NCBI GenBank assembly: GCA_947258975.1 | Contig: CAMYKK010000020.1 | Span: forward strand, 1-63,813 | Origin: an uncultured Gammaproteobacteria bacterium | Lineage (GTDB): Bacteria > Pseudomonadota > Gammaproteobacteria > Arenicellales > JAANXG01 | Direction of reading: 5' to 3' | DNA: 63,813 nt | In this document: positions 6,933 to 63,740 of the stretch, piece after piece | Layout of the letters: each line of letters starts with the position of its first letter | How positions within the stretch are numbered: the stretch's first letter is position 1 | Translations under genes and position numbers: made by a program | The notes under the pieces: generated by a model | Databases searched by the model: none | What the model was told of the DNA's origin: nothing | Seen by the model: the letters and a program-made list of their open reading frames with translations, nothing else

Positions 6933-7289
6933 GTGGATATTGTGTATCTGCACGGTCTGAAGGTCGAATGTGTGATCGGGGTTTGGGCGTGGGAGCGGCG
7001 CATCAAACAGATGGTCACTATAGATCTGGATATGGCCGCTGACATCCGGCATGCCGCTGAGTCGGACCGACTCGAAGACACGCTGAACTACAAGGCAGTG
7101 GCCAAGCGTTTAAACCAGTTCGTGGGGGATTCAGAGTTTCAATTGGTGGAGACGCTGGCAGAAAAGATCGCCGAGTTGCTGCGCGTCGAGTTCGCGATCC
7201 CGTGGTGCCGGATATGTATCAATAAACGTGGCGCCGTGCGCGGTGCTCGTGACGTTGGGGTCATCATTGAACGCGGCCGGGCGCAATAG
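6933..7289 (+). CDS. folB: Dihydroneopterin aldolase FolB
   Basis: Converts 7,8-dihydroneopterin to 6-hydroxymethyl-dihydropterin in folate synthesis. 118 aa, the normal size of this T-fold enzyme, with VYLHGLKVECVIGVWAWER at the N-terminus, the LNYKAVAK segment, the ETLAEKIAE helix and a C-terminal RGA-RGARDVGV strand. The start codon is GTG at 6933; the ATG two bases earlier is in another frame. A possible -10 box TATACT lies at 6894-6899. Its stop overlaps the folK start by one base (TAGTG). Confidence 0.95.
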   Translation: MDIVYLHGLKVECVIGVWAWERRIKQMVTIDLDMAADIRHAAESDRLEDTLNYKAVAKRLNQFVGDSEFQLVETLAEKIAELLRVEFAIPWCRICINKRGAVRGARDVGVIIERGRAQ

Positions 7290-7777
7290 TGCCGCGCGTC
7301 TATCTCAGTATCGGCAGCAATATCGAACGCGGGCGAAATCTGCGCTCGGCAGTGGCGACCTTGTGCCAACGGTTTGGCAGCTTGACGGTTTCCCCGGTTT
7401 ACGAAAGCCGGCCGGTTGGCTTCGAAGGCGATGACTTTTATAACCTCGTAGTGGGATTTGACACCGATCAGTCTGTCGACGAAATGAATCTTGTACTGCG
7501 TGGTATCGAGGCTGCCCATGGCAGGGTTCGTGGCGGCAAGAAATTTAGTTCCCGGACCCTGGATCTGGATGTGTTGCTCTATGGTGATCTGATTGACCAT
7601 GACCCGCCCCGCGACATACCGCGGCGCGAAATCACGCAACATGCGTTTGTGTTAAAGCCGTTGTGTGATATCGCCGGGTCCAGTAAGCATCCGGAAACCG
7701 GCGAGACTTTTGCCGATCTTTGGCGGGAGCGGGGTGATTGGCTGCCCCCGCTGACTCCTGTCTCCATCTCCTTGTAG
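7289..7777 (+). CDS. folK: HPPK (6-hydroxymethyl-7,8-dihydropterin pyrophosphokinase) FolK
   Basis: Pyrophosphorylates hydroxymethyl-dihydropterin, the step after FolB. 162 aa with the signature YLSIGSNIERGRNL, the loop VYESRPVGFEGDDFYNLV and the catalytic RTLDLDVLLYGD. It starts with GTG overlapping the folB stop by one base, so the two are translationally coupled. Confidence 0.96.
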   Translation: MPRVYLSIGSNIERGRNLRSAVATLCQRFGSLTVSPVYESRPVGFEGDDFYNLVVGFDTDQSVDEMNLVLRGIEAAHGRVRGGKKFSSRTLDLDVLLYGDLIDHDPPRDIPRREITQHAFVLKPLCDIAGSSKHPETGETFADLWRERGDWLPPLTPVSISL

Positions 7778-54799: not shown

Positions 54800-55189
54800 A
54801 TGACAAGCAAATATCCCTGCCCGTGCTGTGGTTACCGCGTATTTGATCGCGAACCCGGCAGCCACGCGATTTGCCCGATCTGCCTCTGGGAGGATAACCT
54901 TGTGCAACTGCGATTCCCCACCATGCCGGGGGCGGCGAATGTAGTGTCTTTGGAAACGGCGCAAATCAACTTTGCCACGTTCGGCGCGGCCGAGCGGCGC
55001 CATCGCGATAAGGTGCGTCAGCCGTTGGCCAGCGAAGAGCAGGAACGGGAGTGGCGGCGGCTTGACCCGGGCCGCGACAATCCCGAGTCGCCGCGCTCAG
55101 GCGTCGCCTACGGTGACTCCTATCCAGAGCAGGACTATACCGTGCTGTATTATTGGCGTCCGACGTACTGGCGGCGCTTAGTAAGCTGA
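54800..55189 (+). CDS. CPCC-type cysteine-rich zinc-ribbon protein
   Basis: 129 aa. The N-terminus reads KYPCPCCGYRVF and then CPICLWEDN: two CxxC-type knuckles forming a zinc ribbon, the CPCC family hallmark. The rest is hydrophilic and ends with YTVLYYWRPTYWRRL. Function unknown; single-gene unit between the two aldolase genes. A 7-bp hairpin (GGATCAG / CTGATCC, 55194-55217) follows it without a T-run. Confidence 0.8.
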   Translation: MTSKYPCPCCGYRVFDREPGSHAICPICLWEDNLVQLRFPTMPGAANVVSLETAQINFATFGAAERRHRDKVRQPLASEEQEREWRRLDPGRDNPESPRSGVAYGDSYPEQDYTVLYYWRPTYWRRLVS

Positions 55190-56431: not shown

Positions 56432-57343
56432 TCACCCGTTGACGCCGGCTTCGTCCCGGGGTGTCTTGTTGAGTAAAAAGTCCTTGAATACCCGGGCAAA
56501 GGATGACAAGCGTTTCCCGCGCCGGTGGACCACGTACCAACTGCGCATGATCGGGAAATTGTCAACGTTGAGAATTTTCAACAGCCTGAGTTTCAATTCC
56601 ATGGCCAGCGTGTCACGAGACAGCAGCCCCAAGCCCAGACCGGCCTGGACACTTTGTTTGATGGCCTCGTTGCTGCCCACTTCCATGCCGGTTCTCACCG
56701 TCAAACCGCGGTCCGCGAAGAAACGCTCCATCGCGATGCGTGTGCCTGAGCCCGGCTCCCGCACCAGGAATGTTTGATCGCGAAGTTGTGACAACGGGAT
56801 GCGTTTGCGACGTGCCAAGGGATGGCCGGGCGGCGCAACGATCACCAGCGGATTGTCACGGAAGGGCTCAAATTCCAGATCGTGACCGGTCGGGGGCTGG
56901 CCCATGATGACAATATCGGTTTCATTGTATTCCAGTTGCTTCAGCAATCCCGAGCGGTTGGTGACGTCGAGCACTATATTGACGCCTTGATATCGGTGGT
57001 TGAACGCTGCGAGCAGGTTGGGCACGAAGTAATTGGCAGTGGTGGCAACTGTGATTTTCAAACGCCCACGATGCAGGCCCTTGAGTCCTTCGATAACCGC
57101 CTCGGCCTCTGCCAGTTGCTCGGCAATCGCACGGCTGTAATGCTGCAACTCCTCGCCGGCCTCGGTGAGGAAGACCTTCTTGCCGATTTGTTCGAACAGC
57201 GGCAACGCGACGGATTGCTCGAGTTGGCGAACCTGAATGGACACCGCCGGTTGGGTGAGGTGCAGTTCCTCGGCGGCGCGGGTATAGCTCAAGCGCCGGG
57301 CCACGGCCTCGAATACCTGGAGCTGGCGCAGGGTGACGTGCAT
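56432..57343 (-). CDS. cbbR: LysR-type regulator CbbR
   Basis: 303 aa. N-terminal helix-turn-helix (LRQLQVFEAVARRLSYTRAAEELHL, TQPAVSIQVRQLEQ), then an effector-binding domain with LFEQIGKKVFLTEAGEEL. The divergent position next to cbbL and the close similarity of the N-terminus to CbbR proteins identify it as the activator of the cbb operon, which responds to metabolites such as NADPH, ATP or RuBP in studied species. It probably also represses itself from the shared intergenic region. Confidence 0.93.
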   Translation of the reverse strand: MHVTLRQLQVFEAVARRLSYTRAAEELHLTQPAVSIQVRQLEQSVALPLFEQIGKKVFLTEAGEELQHYSRAIAEQLAEAEAVIEGLKGLHRGRLKITVATTANYFVPNLLAAFNHRYQGVNIVLDVTNRSGLLKQLEYNETDIVIMGQPPTGHDLEFEPFRDNPLVIVAPPGHPLARRKRIPLSQLRDQTFLVREPGSGTRIAMERFFADRGLTVRTGMEVGSNEAIKQSVQAGLGLGLLSRDTLAMELKLRLLKILNVDNFPIMRSWYVVHRRGKRLSSFARVFKDFLLNKTPRDEAGVNG

Positions 57344-57545: not shown

Positions 57546-58970
57546 ATGGCGAAAACTTATCAAGCCGGCGTCAAAGAGTACCGCGAAACGTACTGGATGC
57601 CAGATTACACCCCCAATGAAACCGATCTTTTGGCCTGCTTCAAGATCACTCCGCAGCCGGGTGTACCACGGGAAGAGGCCGCGGCGGCGGTAGCCGCCGA
57701 GTCTTCCACCGGTACCTGGACCACCGTATGGACCGATCTGCTGACCGACTTGGACTACTACAAAGGCCGCGCTTATGCGATCGAAGATGTGCCGGGCGAT
57801 GATGAATGTTTTTATGCCTTTATCGCCTATCCCTTCGACCTGTTCGAGGAAGGGTCGGTGGTCAATGTGTTCACCTCTTTGGTCGGCAACGTGTTCGGCT
57901 TCAAGGCCCTGCGTGCCCTGCGCCTGGAAGATGTGCGCTTTCCCATCGCCTACGTGATGACCTGTAACGGCCCACCGCACGGTATCCAGGTGGAACGCGA
58001 CAAGCTCAATAAGTATGGCCGCGCGCTCTTGGGTTGCACCATCAAACCCAAGCTGGGACTGTCCGCCAAGAACTACGGCCGCGCGGTTTACGAGTGCCTG
58101 CGCGGTGGCCTGGACTTCACCAAAGACGACGAAAACGTCAACTCCCAACCCTTCATGCGCTGGCGCAACCGATTCGAGTTCGTCATGGACGCGATCCACA
58201 AGGCGGAGCGCGAGACCGGCGAACGGAAAGGGCACTATCTGAATGTCACCGCGCCGACGCCGGAAGAGATGTACAAGCGGGCGGAGTTTGCGAAAGAATT
58301 GAATGCCCCGATCATCATGCACGACTACCTCACCGGCGGTTTCTGCGCCAACACCGGTCTCGCGCAGTGGTGCCGGGACAACGGCGTGCTGCTGCATATC
58401 CACCGTGCGATGCACGCGGTGCTCGATCGTCATCCGCGTCACGGCATCCACTTCCGCGTGCTTACCAAGGCTTTGCGCCTTTCGGGTGGCGACCATCTGC
58501 ATTCCGGGACGGTAGTGGGCAAACTCGAGGGCGATCGTGATGCCACCCTGGGGTGGATCGATCTAATGCGCGACAGCTACATCAAAGAGGACCGTACCCG
58601 CGGGATATTTTTCGACCAGGATTGGGGCTCCATGCCGGGCGTGATCCCGGTGGCGTCTGGTGGTATTCACGTGTGGCACATGCCGGCCCTGGTCAGTATT
58701 TTTGGTGACGATGCCTGCCTGCAGTTCGGCGGCGGCACCCTGGGTCATCCTTGGGGCAACGCGGCCGGCGCCGCGGCGAACCGCGTGGCCCTGGAAGCCT
58801 GCGTGGAAGACCGCAACAAAAACGGTGCCGAAGGCCTCGAGAAGCGTGGCGGTGACGTCCTGCGGGGGGCCGCGAAAAACAGCCCCGAACTGGCATCCGC
58901 CATGGAGACTTGGAAGGAAATCAAGTTCGAGTTCGACACCGTCGATAAGCTCGACGTTGCCCATAAGTAA
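57546..58970 (+). CDS. cbbL: RuBisCO large subunit, form I
   Basis: Carboxylates ribulose 1,5-bisphosphate to two 3-phosphoglycerates. 474 aa, green-like form IA. Key residues: Lys167 ([11 protein letters not shown]), carbamylated Lys193 with Asp195 and Glu196 (DFTKDDEN), HIHRAMHAV, and [15 protein letters not shown] (loop 6 side). A form I type is also shown by the adjacent cbbS. No carboxysome genes follow; instead cbbQ and cbbO do, as in the non-carboxysomal (IAq) type. The start ATG at 57546 is well supported by GGGAGA. Confidence 0.98.
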
Positions 58971-59045: not shown

Positions 59046-59405
59046 ATGAGCGAAATGCAAGACTACGCATCGCGGCTGTCCGATCCGGCGAGCCGCAAGT
59101 TTGAAACCTTTTCCTACCTCCCGGAGCTTTCGCCGGACGCGATCCGCGCTCAGGTACAGTATATCTGTGATAAGGGCTGGAACCCGGCCCTCGAACATGT
59201 GGAGCCGGAGAATGCGTTCGATCACTATTGGTATATGTGGAAACTGCCAATGTTTGGCGAGACCGACGTCGACAGTATCCTGGCTGAGGCCGAAGCCTGT
59301 CATAAGGCCAATCCCAATCACCATGTGCGGCTCGTCGGCTACGACAATTACGCCCAGTCCCAGGGCACCGCGATGGTCGTCTTTCGCGGACCGATCAAGG
59401 TCTGA
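59046..59405 (+). CDS. cbbS: RuBisCO small subunit, form I
   Basis: 119 aa. N-terminal [19 protein letters not shown], the conserved [19 protein letters not shown], the [10 protein letters not shown] segment, and [20 protein letters not shown]. Assembles with CbbL into the L8S8 holoenzyme. AGAGGA lies upstream of the ATG. This is clearly the true partner of cbbL; a second, quite different small-subunit-like gene lies at 62847. Confidence 0.97.
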
Positions 59406-59586: not shown

Positions 59587-60387
59587 ATGACCGACAAAGA
59601 CCAGTACCTCGTCAAGACTGAGCCCTACTACCGTCCTGTGGGCAACGAAGTGCAGATGTACGAAGCCGCCTACGCGGCGCGCATGCCGGTAATGCTCAAG
59701 GGGCCCACCGGTTGCGGCAAGTCGCGCTTCGTCGAGTATATGGCATGGAAGTTGGATAAGCCGCTTATTACCATCGCTTGTAACGAGGACATGACCGCCT
59801 CCGACCTGGTCGGCCGTTTTCTGCTCGATATCAACGGCACCAAGTGGCAGGACGGTCCGCTCACCGCGGCGACGCGCGCCGGGGCGATCTGTTATTTGGA
59901 CGAGGTCGTAGAGGCCCGCCAGGATACGACCGTGGTTATCCATCCACTCACTGATCATCGCCGCAACCTGCCGCTGGAGAAAAAGGGCGAATTGGTTGAC
60001 GCGCACCCCGATTTTCAGATCGTCATTTCTTACAATCCGGGTTATCAGAGTCTGATGAAGGATCTGAAGCAGTCCACGAAACAGCGCTTCGGTGCAATGG
60101 ACTTCGACTACCCGGAAGCGGCAGTCGAGGCCGAGATCGTTGCCCACGAAGGTAACGTTGACAACGCGATCGCGGATAAACTGGTACAGGTCGCCCAACG
60201 CTCTCGTAATCTCAAGGGCCACGGTCTGGACGAGGGGATATCCACCCGACTGCTGGTTTACGCGGCCCAATTGATCAGCAAGGGCATTGAGGCCCAGGCG
60301 GCTTGCCAGATGGCGCTGGTGTGCCCGCTGACCGATGATCCGGATATGCGCGACACCTTGGATGCCGCGGTCAATACGTATTTCTGA
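59587..60387 (+). CDS. cbbQ: RuBisCO activase ATPase CbbQ (MoxR AAA+)
   Basis: 266 aa. Walker A GPTGCGKS (39-46), Walker B ICYLDE (101-106), arginine-finger region near KQRFGAMDF, and the sensor 2 tail. A hexameric AAA+ ATPase that, with CbbO, removes sugar-phosphate inhibitors from RuBisCO. Start chosen at the ATG at 59587 (MTDKDQYLVKTEPYY), matching family starts; a longer frame from 59512 has no family similarity upstream. Confidence 0.95.
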   Translation: MTDKDQYLVKTEPYYRPVGNEVQMYEAAYAARMPVMLKGPTGCGKSRFVEYMAWKLDKPLITIACNEDMTASDLVGRFLLDINGTKWQDGPLTAATRAGAICYLDEVVEARQDTTVVIHPLTDHRRNLPLEKKGELVDAHPDFQIVISYNPGYQSLMKDLKQSTKQRFGAMDFDYPEAAVEAEIVAHEGNVDNAIADKLVQVAQRSRNLKGHGLDEGISTRLLVYAAQLISKGIEAQAACQMALVCPLTDDPDMRDTLDAAVNTYF

Positions 60388-60462: not shown

Positions 60463-62844
60463 ATGAGCATAGATTTCAGCGAATACGTCTCCTGCATAGA
60501 TTTCGAAGATGCTCATGAGCACCGTGAGGCGCTGGAGTCTGCCTATCATGAGGCGGCGCGAGTCATGTCACCGCGAGGCTTGCAGAATTATCTGGAAGGC
60601 ATGCGCGCCATGTGCAGCCTGGGACGTGGCCAAGACCTGGTGCTCACCTACGTACAGGAAATGCCGGGCGTGGCAAAGGAGGTGGGCGAGGACGTGGTAC
60701 CCGACGTAGTCACCAGTTTGATGAAGTTGGCCTCGCACACCTCGGGCACCGTAATCACCTTGATGATGAGCACCATGCCGCTCGCAGCCCGGCGTTTGGG
60801 TGACGTGGATGTGATGCGCGGTTATCTGAAACTGCTGCATCAGTTGGCCGGTAAGGCGCCACGTGGCATCAGACCGATGATGGAACATCTCGATGAGCTG
60901 CTCTCCAAGCTCACGCTGGGTGGTCTACGCCGTTGGGCCCAGTGGGGCATGCAGGCGCACCAGCGCGATCTGGACGGGCAGATGGCCTATTTCGGATTGC
61001 AGACCACGTCCTCGCGCTCGGTGTTGCAAAAGGAACGCCGCGGCACGCTATTCATCGACAATCAGCGAAAGCTGAATTTCTATCTGCGAGCGCTCTGGGC
61101 CCGTGCTTTTTTTATGCGCCCCACTTCGGGCGATTATGAGACACGCCAGGGTCTCAAGCCCTATATAGAGGACTTTCAGATACACTTGCCGGACGCGTTC
61201 GATGCCTTCCGCGGGATTGACGGCATAGAGCTGTTTCGTGCCGCCGCCGCACATAGTGCCGCCCATATGGTCTACACACGCGATCCGCTCAGCGCCGAGC
61301 AACTCAGCCCCGCGCAAATGAAATTCATCGAACTGTTCGAGGACGCACGTGTCGAACACTTGGCGTTTCAGGAGTTCCCAGGCCTGAAGAAGCTGTGGCT
61401 GAGATTCTTCACTGATGCGCCAACCAGCGATGAAGAGGTCGTGGACGTCCACCCGACCATGGGGCTGATGATGCGCATGGCGCGCGCGTTGCTGGATGAG
61501 GATTACCGCGACGACCAGACGTGGATCAACGAGAGTGCCACCACGTTCCATAGTCAGTTGAAAGAGGATCCGGAGTCGAACCGTATCAGCTGGATGGCAG
61601 GTGTGGATTTCTATAACCGTGTCGCTGATAAGGCCGCGATACCGGGGCTGCGTCAAATAGAGAACATGCCCATTCCCTACCGCGACGATAACCGGTACGT
61701 CTGGACCTTCGCCGAGAACCCGTTCGCTTCGCAGGGCGTGGACTATGTTCCGACGGCCAATCAACAGGTTCGCCGCTACGTGAACATCATGGAGATGGCC
61801 AACGAAGTAGACGTACCCGGGGCCGGAGACGACGCACAAGAAATCTGGGTGTGCGCCGATGAGGTCTTCCCTTACGAGGATGAAGGCATCAGCTACAACC
61901 AGATGGAGGGTAAAGAGCCGGTCTCCGAACCTTTCCACTACGATGAATGGGACTACCACGTGCAGTTGGCGCGTCCCGAATGGGCAACTGTCATCGAACG
62001 CCGCCTGCCCAAGGGCGACCCGGACATGATGGACGAAATTCTTACAAAATATAAGCCCGTCGCCAGCCGCATCCGCCACTTGATCGATGCCATGCAACCG
62101 CAGGGCATCGTTAGACGTCGCGGCTACGAGGAGGGCGAGGAACTCGATCTCAACGCCGCGGTGCGAGCGATGATTGATATTCGCCGCGGAACGATGCCCG
62201 ATCCGCGCATCAATATTCGTATCACCCGGCATATCCGCGAGCTGGCGATCGTGGTGCTCATGGATCTTTCTGAGTCCACCAACGAAAAGGTCGGCGTTAA
62301 AGAGAACGAACCAGGTTACGAAGACGCGCCCTCGATTCTTGATTTGACGCGCGAGTCTACCGGCCTGTTGGCGTGGGCGATTGACTCGATCGGTGACACC
62401 TTTGCGGTGCACGGATTTGCATCGGACGGTCGCCACGACGTCCAGTATTACCGTTTTAAGGACTTCAATCAGCCCTACGACGATGAATCCAAAGCGCGCT
62501 TAGCCGGTATGAAAGGGGGGCTTTCTACACGCATGGGCGCCGCACTTCGCCACGCGGGTTGGCACCTTGCCCAGCAATCCGCGCAGAAACGCCTAGTGTT
62601 GCTCATCACCGACGGCGAACCGGCCGATGTCGACGAGCGTGATCCTCAATACTTGCGACACGATACGAAAAAGGCGGTTGAGGAACTGGCGACGCGTGGC
62701 ATATACACCTATTGTCTGACCCTAGATCCGCTGGCAGATCGCTACGTCGCCAGGGTGTTCGGGGAGAACAACTACTCCATTGTCGACCACGTCGAACGAT
62801 TACCGGAACGATTGCCCACCGTATTCGCTGCATTGACGGGCTGA
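60463..62844 (+). CDS. cbbO: RuBisCO activase adaptor CbbO (von Willebrand A domain)
   Basis: 793 aa. A long helical N-terminal part and a C-terminal VWA domain with the metal-ion-dependent adhesion motif D601-L-S603-E-S605 (VVLMDLSEST), followed by GMKGGLSTRMGAALRHA and LLITDGEP. CbbO bridges RuBisCO and the CbbQ ring. The stop is 2 nt before the start of the next gene, a RuBisCO small-subunit-like protein, so the two are almost certainly co-translated. Confidence 0.95.
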   Translation: MSIDFSEYVSCIDFEDAHEHREALESAYHEAARVMSPRGLQNYLEGMRAMCSLGRGQDLVLTYVQEMPGVAKEVGEDVVPDVVTSLMKLASHTSGTVITLMMSTMPLAARRLGDVDVMRGYLKLLHQLAGKAPRGIRPMMEHLDELLSKLTLGGLRRWAQWGMQAHQRDLDGQMAYFGLQTTSSRSVLQKERRGTLFIDNQRKLNFYLRALWARAFFMRPTSGDYETRQGLKPYIEDFQIHLPDAFDAFRGIDGIELFRAAAAHSAAHMVYTRDPLSAEQLSPAQMKFIELFEDARVEHLAFQEFPGLKKLWLRFFTDAPTSDEEVVDVHPTMGLMMRMARALLDEDYRDDQTWINESATTFHSQLKEDPESNRISWMAGVDFYNRVADKAAIPGLRQIENMPIPYRDDNRYVWTFAENPFASQGVDYVPTANQQVRRYVNIMEMANEVDVPGAGDDAQEIWVCADEVFPYEDEGISYNQMEGKEPVSEPFHYDEWDYHVQLARPEWATVIERRLPKGDPDMMDEILTKYKPVASRIRHLIDAMQPQGIVRRRGYEEGEELDLNAAVRAMIDIRRGTMPDPRINIRITRHIRELAIVVLMDLSESTNEKVGVKENEPGYEDAPSILDLTRESTGLLAWAIDSIGDTFAVHGFASDGRHDVQYYRFKDFNQPYDDESKARLAGMKGGLSTRMGAALRHAGWHLAQQSAQKRLVLLITDGEPADVDERDPQYLRHDTKKAVEELATRGIYTYCLTLDPLADRYVARVFGENNYSIVDHVERLPERLPTVFAALTG

Positions 62845-62846
62845 TC

Positions 62847-63170
62847 ATGCGCAATGTAAGCAGTTTCACCGAAACCGTAACCTTCAGCGATGAACAAATA
62901 CGTGAGCAAATCCATTATTGCAGCAAGCGAGGTTGGGCTTTGATGATTGAATACACGATAGATCCGGCTCCGGACAACCACTTCTGGGAACGATGGGGGT
63001 TGCCGATGTTAGATCCCGATGATCCCGACCTGGTGTTATTTGAGATCGACGCCTGCCGTCAAGCGTTTCCACAACATCATATTCGGGTCATCGCGGGTGA
63101 GTCGGAGAAGGGCCGGTCGCTCATTCGTCATACAATATTGGTGCACGCGCCCACAGGATCGAGAGACTGA
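62847..63170 (+). CDS. Stand-alone RuBisCO small-subunit-like protein
   Basis: 107 aa. A RbcS domain is recognisable: DEQIREQIHYCSKRGWALMI, EYTIDP, FWERWGLPMLDPDDPDLVLF, DACRQAFPQHHIRV. It is much closer in style to cyanobacterial or red-type RbcS and to the RbcS-like modules of CcmM than to the CbbS at 59046, and it lacks the N-terminal FSYLP segment. The gene starts 2 nt after cbbO, at the end of the cbbLSQO operon. It could be an alternative subunit, a recruiting module that brings CbbQ/CbbO to RuBisCO, or an assembly factor; the function is inferred only. An ATG-start upstream inside cbbO is rejected. Confidence 0.8.
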   Translation: MRNVSSFTETVTFSDEQIREQIHYCSKRGWALMIEYTIDPAPDNHFWERWGLPMLDPDDPDLVLFEIDACRQAFPQHHIRVIAGESEKGRSLIRHTILVHAPTGSRD

Positions 63171-63197: not shown

Positions 63198-63563
63198 ATG
63201 ATTCGGCGTATTCGCGATCTTGCACCGTTGCGTTCCGTACCCAAGACCGTTGAGGCGCGTTATTACAATCGCGTACGGTTGGCCTTGGCGCGTCTGGGCA
63301 AACCCTTGGAAGTAGAGCTGGATGAAGAGCTGCGGCAGACTGACATGCTACTCACCGACCAGGAATGGCTGTGTGTCGATCGTACACGCGATGATCTGCC
63401 ATTACTCGCGTGGACTGATTTTGCGGTCAAAGAGCGGGATGCACTGCACGCCCCGGTTCGATGCACACTACATCTTTATCACGCCCACGCGGGATTATTG
63501 ATTGGGCGGACCCTGCCGATCCTTGATCGCATCCTGCAACAACGACTGGCCGATCAAACCTAG
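63198..63563 (+). CDS. Unrecognised small protein at the end of the cbb operon
   Basis: 121 aa starting ATG at 63198, 27 nt after the small-subunit-like gene. Sequence features: basic N-terminus (MIRRIRDLAPLRSVPKTVEA), a central RTRDDLPLLAWTDFAVKERDAL segment, and a hydrophobic LYHAHAGLLIGRTLPILDRIL. No signal peptide, no membrane helix and no catalytic motif that I recognise. The position suggests a role with the RuBisCO activation system. A terminator-like repeat follows it. Confidence 0.7.
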   Translation: MIRRIRDLAPLRSVPKTVEARYYNRVRLALARLGKPLEVELDEELRQTDMLLTDQEWLCVDRTRDDLPLLAWTDFAVKERDALHAPVRCTLHLYHAHAGLLIGRTLPILDRILQQRLADQT

Positions 63564-63638: not shown

Positions 63639-63740
63639 CACGGCGCTTGTCCCCGCACAGCAGGGGGCTTGTCCCCGCACAGCAGGGGGCTTGTCCCCAG
63701 ACAAGGGGGTCTGACCCGAATGGCACTAAGTTAAGCCCCT
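63601..63740. repeat. Intergenic repeat, copy interrupted by tandem units
   Basis: Its left part (63601-63631) matches 17706-17736 and its right part (63712-63736) matches 17731-17757, both starting or ending with TGACCC. The two halves are separated by 80 bp (63632-63711) made mostly of 22-bp tandem units, as if those had been inserted with duplication of TGACCC. Confidence 0.6.
63655..63698. repeat. Second locus of 22-bp tandem units
   Basis: Two exact consecutive 22-bp copies (63655-63676, 63677-63698), beginning GCACAGCAGGGGG and ending CTTGTCCCC. They differ at three positions from the units at 22970-23013. Each contains a GGGG-CCCC mini-hairpin. Confidence 0.7.

Follow-up and report, generated by a model that had tools for sequence, protein, structure and literature searches.

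Outside the L8S8 core of RuBisCO, the RbcS fold is known from the small subunit-like (SSUL) modules of CcmM and of the Rubisco activase Rca (6hba, 6has), which are either fused to accessory proteins of RuBisCO or encoded next to them. To our knowledge, no docking modules of the RbcS type have been reported other than those of the cyanobacterial CcmM and activase. Raf1 and RbcX are known as RuBisCO assembly factors, and in activases of the CbbQO type a Walker A motif characterizes CbbQ and a MIDAS motif CbbO. Together with acRaf, RbcX and Raf1 represent small RuBisCO-linked accessory proteins (excerpted text of PMC12918739), a trait that they share with the two proteins considered here. According to the excerpted text of PMC8718961, in which the CbbQO activase is described as consisting of CbbQ and CbbO only, CbbQO interacts with the large subunit through an HK/R motif at the C-terminus of the latter. 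The small subunits of the red type (form IC) carry a C-terminal β-hairpin that is credited with a critical role in assembly in the excerpted text of PMC9833052, where red RuBisCO is said to need RbcS and this hairpin.

Here we describe a small RbcS-like protein, RbcSx, and its partner, ORF121, which are encoded at the end of a cbbLSQO operon within the stretch of 63,813 nucleotides that was analyzed (the window; Table 1). CbbL ends in KLDVAHK, so that the HK motif is present, CbbO contains a MIDAS-like DLSES at residue 601 and CbbQ the Walker A sequence GPTGCGKS, which are features shared with the described CbbQO activase and which make this an ordinary-looking activase operon; the divergent LysR gene upstream of cbbL is also found in 7 relatives. 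The rbcSx frame starts with an ATG 2 nt past the cbbO stop codon (62842-62844) and ends with TGA, and ORF121 begins 27 nt downstream of it. RbcSx matches the Pfam family RuBisCO_small with an E-value of 7.8e-24 (residues 12-91 on profile positions 9-88 of 97), and it is 33% identical to the CbbS of the same operon across 82 residues. A previous sequence-only reading of this DNA had noted an RbcS-domain protein directly after cbbO in an operon that already has a normal cbbS, and both statements hold, the proposed check against the Pfam profile included. It had also called the gene fused to the end of the operon, which is not the case in the window, where rbcSx adjoins cbbO, and it was silent on the ORF121 gene, which proved informative. 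The host genome (5.49 Mb, 214 contigs, 96% complete) yielded two PF00101 matches and one RuBisCO_large match, all of them within this operon. A search of this genome for CsoS2 gave no match, and the control search likewise matched nowhere. In addition, a CPCC-motif protein (PF14206) is encoded at positions 54800-55189 of the window and has a relative at locus L126 5511-5921 (genome G163), both near RuBisCO genes.

Table 1 Features of the cbbLSQO-rbcSx-orf121 region, with positions in the window.
Feature	Position	Strand	Evidence
cbbR-like LysR regulator, divergent from cbbL	56432..57343	-	PF03466/PF00126
cbbL, form I large subunit	57546..58970	+	PF00016 460 bits, NCBIfam NF003252 780 bits
cbbS, ordinary green (IA) small subunit	59046..59405	+	PF00101 130 bits
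cbbQ, MoxR AAA+ motor	59587..60387	+	PF08406 118.6 bits, PF07728 109.1 bits
cbbO, VWA-domain activase adaptor	60463..62844	+	PF00092 24.5 bits (cut-off 23.8)
RbcSx, 107-aa hairpin-less RbcS-like protein, apparently red-type-derived	62847..63170	+	PF00101 84 bits (cut-off 27), AlphaFold2 model, Foldseek
ORF121, 121-aa partner of RbcSx	63198..63563	+	No convincing Pfam, NCBIfam or PDB sequence match

The closest relative of RbcSx by sequence and fold is the red-type small subunit of Rhodobacter sphaeroides. Red-type subunits were the best PDB sequence matches (5nv3, E 1e-24), and the AlphaFold2 model of RbcSx (pLDDT 81.8, residues 1-9 below 50) returned the RuBisCO small subunit 5nv3_I as the top Foldseek match (TMq 0.81, 41% identity, E 8.1e-9). 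A profile built from RbcSx and its fused forms (A4) scored 102.8 bits against 5nv3, 74.3 bits against the Halothiobacillus subunit 1svd, 22 bits against the SSUL of CcmM (E 0.0011) and 21.4 bits against that of the activase (E 0.0017), and the mean identity of the eight RbcSx proteins was 37% to 36 red and 27% to 38 green subunits. RbcSx shares F74, H77, A83, R94, V99 and P102 with the commonest red and not the commonest green residue, and its consensus at I34, H36 and A73 matches green and not red. In an RbcS tree of 85 rows and 118 columns, which has long branches and from which six partial or odd rows were left out (loci L014, L056, L072, L073, L083 and L182), the 38 green subunits, the CbbS of the operon among them, form a single clade with a support of 100/100 and with RbcSx outside, and RbcSx forms a single clade with two fusions (100/99). 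This clade is placed among the red lineages, positions inside and beside the red subunits not being distinguished (p-AU 0.484). The unconstrained tree split the eight RbcSx rows, a tree keeping them together being no worse (p-AU 0.531), and the short RbcS of locus L079 appears as sister to the RbcSx clade with a support of 77/80, which is not firm. Since sequence, structure and tree all fall on the red side, RbcSx appears to be a red-type-derived protein within a green operon, in agreement with the earlier view that it resembles a different RbcS branch. The alternative that it is a duplicate of the cbbS of the operon is ruled out by the green clade, which excludes RbcSx.

RbcSx is a separate gene in 8 genomes and is fused to ORF121 in three others, which belong to a family (f2) other than that of the window (f1). 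In two of these (G101 and G102), a single reading frame directly behind cbbO encodes the RbcSx domain followed by the ORF121 domain; in the third (G104), the gene is interrupted where two contigs end, with cbbL-S-Q-O and the start of RbcSx on one contig, the remainder and ORF121 on the other, and an identical overlap of about 46 residues between the two pieces. A further arrangement is found in a third lineage (G276; L110 6612-14229 with L194), in which the place of cbbLS ahead of an alpha-carboxysome operon is taken by a red-like RbcS and ORF121. This RbcS is hairpin-less, has 107 aa, still contains FSFLP and the Met, and shows a kinship with RbcSx of weak support (77/80); its ORF121 lies in an overlapping open frame and is followed by csoS2, csoSCA, csoS4A, csoS4B and a set of three csoS1 genes, and the contig also carries cbbLSQO further downstream. 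That these two domains are paired in three arrangements, including a fusion, is in our view the strongest evidence for a joint function, and the pair probably represents a RuBisCO helper that has been overlooked.

Using a profile of ORF121 (A3), we found matches in 83 of 369 sampled genomes of the class (E <= 0.01, own genome included) and in 8 of 398 genomes across the phylum (E <= 0.001). A match to RuBisCO_large, a family that also takes in RuBisCO-like proteins, was present in 79 of the 83 genomes with ORF121 compared to 187 of the 369 overall (Fisher p 4e-23, which is nominal because the genomes are related). Four of the 83 matches are weaker than E 1e-5 (G210, G260, G420 and G429), and without these the count is 75 of 79; the four genomes with ORF121 and no RuBisCO_large match are 72-94% complete, and one of them (G432) has RbcS matches. 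The neighborhood was inspected in 60 stretches covering 63 of the 100 ORF121 matches outside the window, mostly the best-scoring ones. ORF121 is located within 800 bp behind cbbO in 21 of these 63 genes (in L100 behind a 68-residue cbbO fragment) and within 800 bp behind cbbX in 12, which together amounts to 33, and another RuBisCO or activase gene is found in the stretch for 13. For the remaining 17 genes, some of them at contig ends, the stretch contains neither a RuBisCO nor an activase gene, which counts against the explanation that we favor below. At five loci (L096, L104, L105, L111 and L112), this applies to about 7 kb on each side, or less at contig ends, with RuBisCO_large elsewhere in the genome. 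At two other loci, ORF121 is located directly upstream of a low-scoring, probably form II, large-subunit gene (L113 6756-9013 and L131 6866-8974), and at L152 6974-9076 it is directly upstream of a form I cbbL, with a second copy behind cbbO.

For 28 diverse ORF121 members, the best E-values were 0.0071 in Pfam and 0.039 in NCBIfam, each from one or two members, and these isolated matches were taken as chance; in a profile search of the PDB no sequence match was better than E 0.099, and acRaf, RbcX and Raf1 were not among the Pfam, NCBIfam or PDB sequence matches. The family has three invariant residues (W57, W72 and H95) and two that are almost invariant (N24 and C89), which suggests a functional surface. 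A model of ORF121 with a pLDDT of 79.2 (range of the five models 54-79), which is based on 8 similar sequences, gave no Foldseek match at E <= 0.001 (best 0.039). The top VIA-align match was 2p4f (Z 6.5, rmsd 3.7, 104 aligned; next listed 4.9), which we take to be Atp11, a chaperone of F1-ATPase assembly. As a Z below 8 may reflect a common arrangement and the model derives from 8 similar sequences, we do not claim a fold for ORF121.

Because ORF121 accompanies two unrelated activases, its role is more likely to lie in the handling of RuBisCO than with CbbO itself. The reading that we favor, tentatively and with slightly less than even confidence, is that RbcSx and ORF121 form a two-part RuBisCO accessory, in which RbcSx docks on L8S8 and ORF121 aids the activase or quality control. 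A red-type small subunit would have shed the FSxLP anchor, Met49, Arg101 and the C-terminal β-hairpin, that is, features presumably needed for stable incorporation as a small subunit, and would have retained the fold. The resulting RbcSx may dock on the assembled green L8S8 RuBisCO without displacing CbbS, comparable to the SSUL modules of CcmM and activase, and would keep ORF121 on RuBisCO, where the latter could assist the activase step or a conformational quality control. Judged from sequence comparisons, RbcSx is most likely a RuBisCO-docking handle for ORF121 and not a replacement small subunit, and ORF121 is most likely a putative helper of RuBisCO repair or assembly. The suggestion in the sequence-only reading of a recruitment or assembly module for CbbQ/CbbO is in part retained, since the position, the lost subunit elements and the selection described below would fit a RuBisCO-binding module, but the evidence on the partner points to ORF121 and not to CbbO.

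Alternatively, the pair might act in the maturation of L8 to L8S8 and not with the activase, either with RbcSx as a temporary occupant of the small-subunit site or with ORF121 as a chaperone of CbbL, which we consider unlikely, though worth keeping in mind. An assembly factor would be in line with the presence of ORF121 behind cbbX as well, in red operons, with the retention of Y24 and E35 in RbcSx (see below) and, as a weak lead, with the match of the ORF121 model to Atp11, which at its Z-score could however stem from a common arrangement. The pair is located behind the activase gene and not beside cbbLS, and red RuBisCO is said to assemble via RbcS and its C-terminal hairpin (excerpted text of PMC9833052), both of which speak against such a function.

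The docking reading can further be judged by the residues of RbcSx, which we compared with 36 red and 38 green ordinary small subunits at positions that are conserved to about 90% or more in both. All eight RbcSx proteins have lost S8, L10 (presumably L18 in spinach numbering) and P11 of the FSxLP segment, M49, F55 and R101. S8, L10 and P11 are also absent from the two fusions with a complete N-terminus, and ordinary subunits retain each of them in at least 92% of the red and at least 97% of the green proteins. The loss of an N-terminal FSYLP segment, as it had been proposed before, hence applies to these three positions and not to F7, which is retained. Position 49 (YWxMW) is Met in 36/36 red and 38/38 green subunits and Arg in 8/8 RbcSx, and with R and L in the two fusions Arg is found in 9 of 10 proteins; Y46 is replaced by Phe in 6/8 RbcSx. 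Beyond the domain match, the eight proteins have 1-5 residues and no βE/βF hairpin, compared to 24-37 residues in red subunits with a readable end, with the exceptions of L014 (49) and the short L079 (1). In L014 1459-1857 (G012), a red-type subunit that is good to mid-gene is followed by unrelated letters, as after a frameshift. Kept in all eight RbcSx are F7, W30, E35, W47, P53, E66, C70 and R80, and in part of them Y24 (7/8) and Q21 (6/8).

Compared to the red-type subunit, RbcSx thus lacks the C-terminal hairpin, SxLP and R101 and carries M49R, it resides beside a green IA RuBisCO that already has its CbbS, and it is fused to ORF121 in three relatives. Because the defining features that were tested are missing, RbcSx is, as judged by its residues, not a proper small subunit. 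The lost residues and the missing hairpin argue against a stable replacement subunit, while the retained Y24 and E35, which we take to be the equivalents of Y32 and E43, argue in the opposite direction. Y32 and E43 are named among the RbcL-contacting residues in the excerpted text of PMC9833052. A condition-specific alternative small subunit, which would replace CbbS in some L8S8 and alter the kinetics and which had been suggested in the sequence-only reading, could draw on the Pfam family and fold that RbcSx shares with small subunits and on the many core residues that it retains; the lost N-terminal anchor, M49R, the absence of F55, R101 and the hairpin, the low confidence of the model at residues 1-9 and the second domain attached in the three fusions make it improbable.

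The pair is conserved in the family of the window. Among its 13 genomes (G000-G012), 8 have cbbLSQO, and in all 8 RbcSx and ORF121 follow cbbO in the identical gene order cbbL-S-Q-O-rbcSx-orf121; no RbcSx match at E <= 0.01 was found in G008-G010, and G011 and G012 have only red-type cbbLS. One genome of the same genus (G004) contains a second cbbLSQO cluster (L062 4581-9570) without RbcSx and ORF121, so that the pair is present in 8 of 9 clusters of the family. The RbcSx clade occurs in 11 of 109 genomes of the order, 8 from f1 and 3 from f2, and the cbbLSQO clusters of G013, G018 and G032 have neither gene. Three further candidate counter-examples were dismissed, as the contigs with the green cbbS of G105 and G107 stop inside cbbO and cbbQ, and in the 12.5 kb read from G082 cbbLS is accompanied by neither cbbQ nor cbbO. 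From this we conclude that the RbcSx-ORF121 pair is optional to cbbLSQO clusters, which counts against the accessory that we favor. Matches to RbcSx were found in 116 plasmid records, each with less than 60% identity and, in the 30 of the 116 that were listed, to RuBisCO small subunits wherever annotated, and no plasmid record matched ORF121; 13 pattern matches in viral contigs included no relative.

An optional distribution and a late position in the operon would also suit a modulator, for example a decoy or negative regulator whose binding to RuBisCO or CbbO would reduce activity or the engagement of the activase, for instance under carbon or energy stress. As no result of the analysis points to inhibition, we regard this as slightly more improbable still than the replacement subunit.

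The selection on the genes is in accordance with a functional RbcSx. Relative to the window copies, dN/dS was 0.06-0.19 for RbcSx and 0.03-0.08 for CbbS, the unsaturated values for ORF121 were 0.06-0.14, and the RbcSx frame is open in 8/8 genomes. RbcSx is therefore under purifying selection, which rules out a pseudogene, and a chance or mis-called frame is ruled out by the profile score, the conservation and dN/dS; in the survey of cbbO neighbors proposed along with the earlier reading the gene was conserved. That RbcSx is a decaying remnant of a horizontally acquired red-type cbbS, retained by chance, would fit its red-type ancestry, the missing hairpin and the red-type cbbLS in the same family (G011, G012), but is very hard to reconcile with the selection, which already contradicts it, the open frames, the survival of the remaining frame after an insertion in G002 and the fusion to ORF121. 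The G002 insertion (L031 about 7085-7350) is an element that spans about 265 bp, has terminal inverted repeats and shows a CTAG duplication; it is located inside rbcSx after codon 5, and its end provides a new ATG, the rest of the frame being still open. A short unit within this element corresponds to the tandem at the contig end of the window (63645-63698), and a 24-base piece of the unit has 16 copies in the own genome.

Like the SSULs, RbcSx would thus combine an RbcS fold with a place outside the L8S8 core, and for both SSULs the match to the RbcSx profile begins at position 18, past the FSxLP segment. RbcSx differs from them in being a free-standing gene in the window, with a partner that has no recognized relation to CcmM or Rca domains. 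By analogy RbcSx may work like an SSUL, yet by sequence it is not a member of this group (22 vs 103 bits), and the two are likely of separate origin. The matches listed from the open-access literature included neither a free-standing small subunit-like protein behind cbbO nor an ORF121-like gene; a gene orf06 of Boehnke and Perner is mentioned in PMC5506194 (excerpted text).

More broadly, ORF121 might be a general third component of proteobacterial RuBisCO repair or assembly that is common to CbbQO and CbbX, and RbcSx a docking domain derived from a red small subunit, independent of the cyanobacterial SSULs, that moved to a green RuBisCO, a generalization that we find possible but doubtful. 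If true, this would represent a second origin, from a red-type subunit beside CbbQO, and indicate that evolution repeatedly makes docking modules of the small subunit. The ORF121 family is found behind both cbbO and cbbX and is nevertheless nameless in Pfam and NCBIfam. If ORF121 acts in RuBisCO repair or assembly, reconstituted activase systems as well as transfers of proteobacterial RuBisCO to other hosts may have missed a component.
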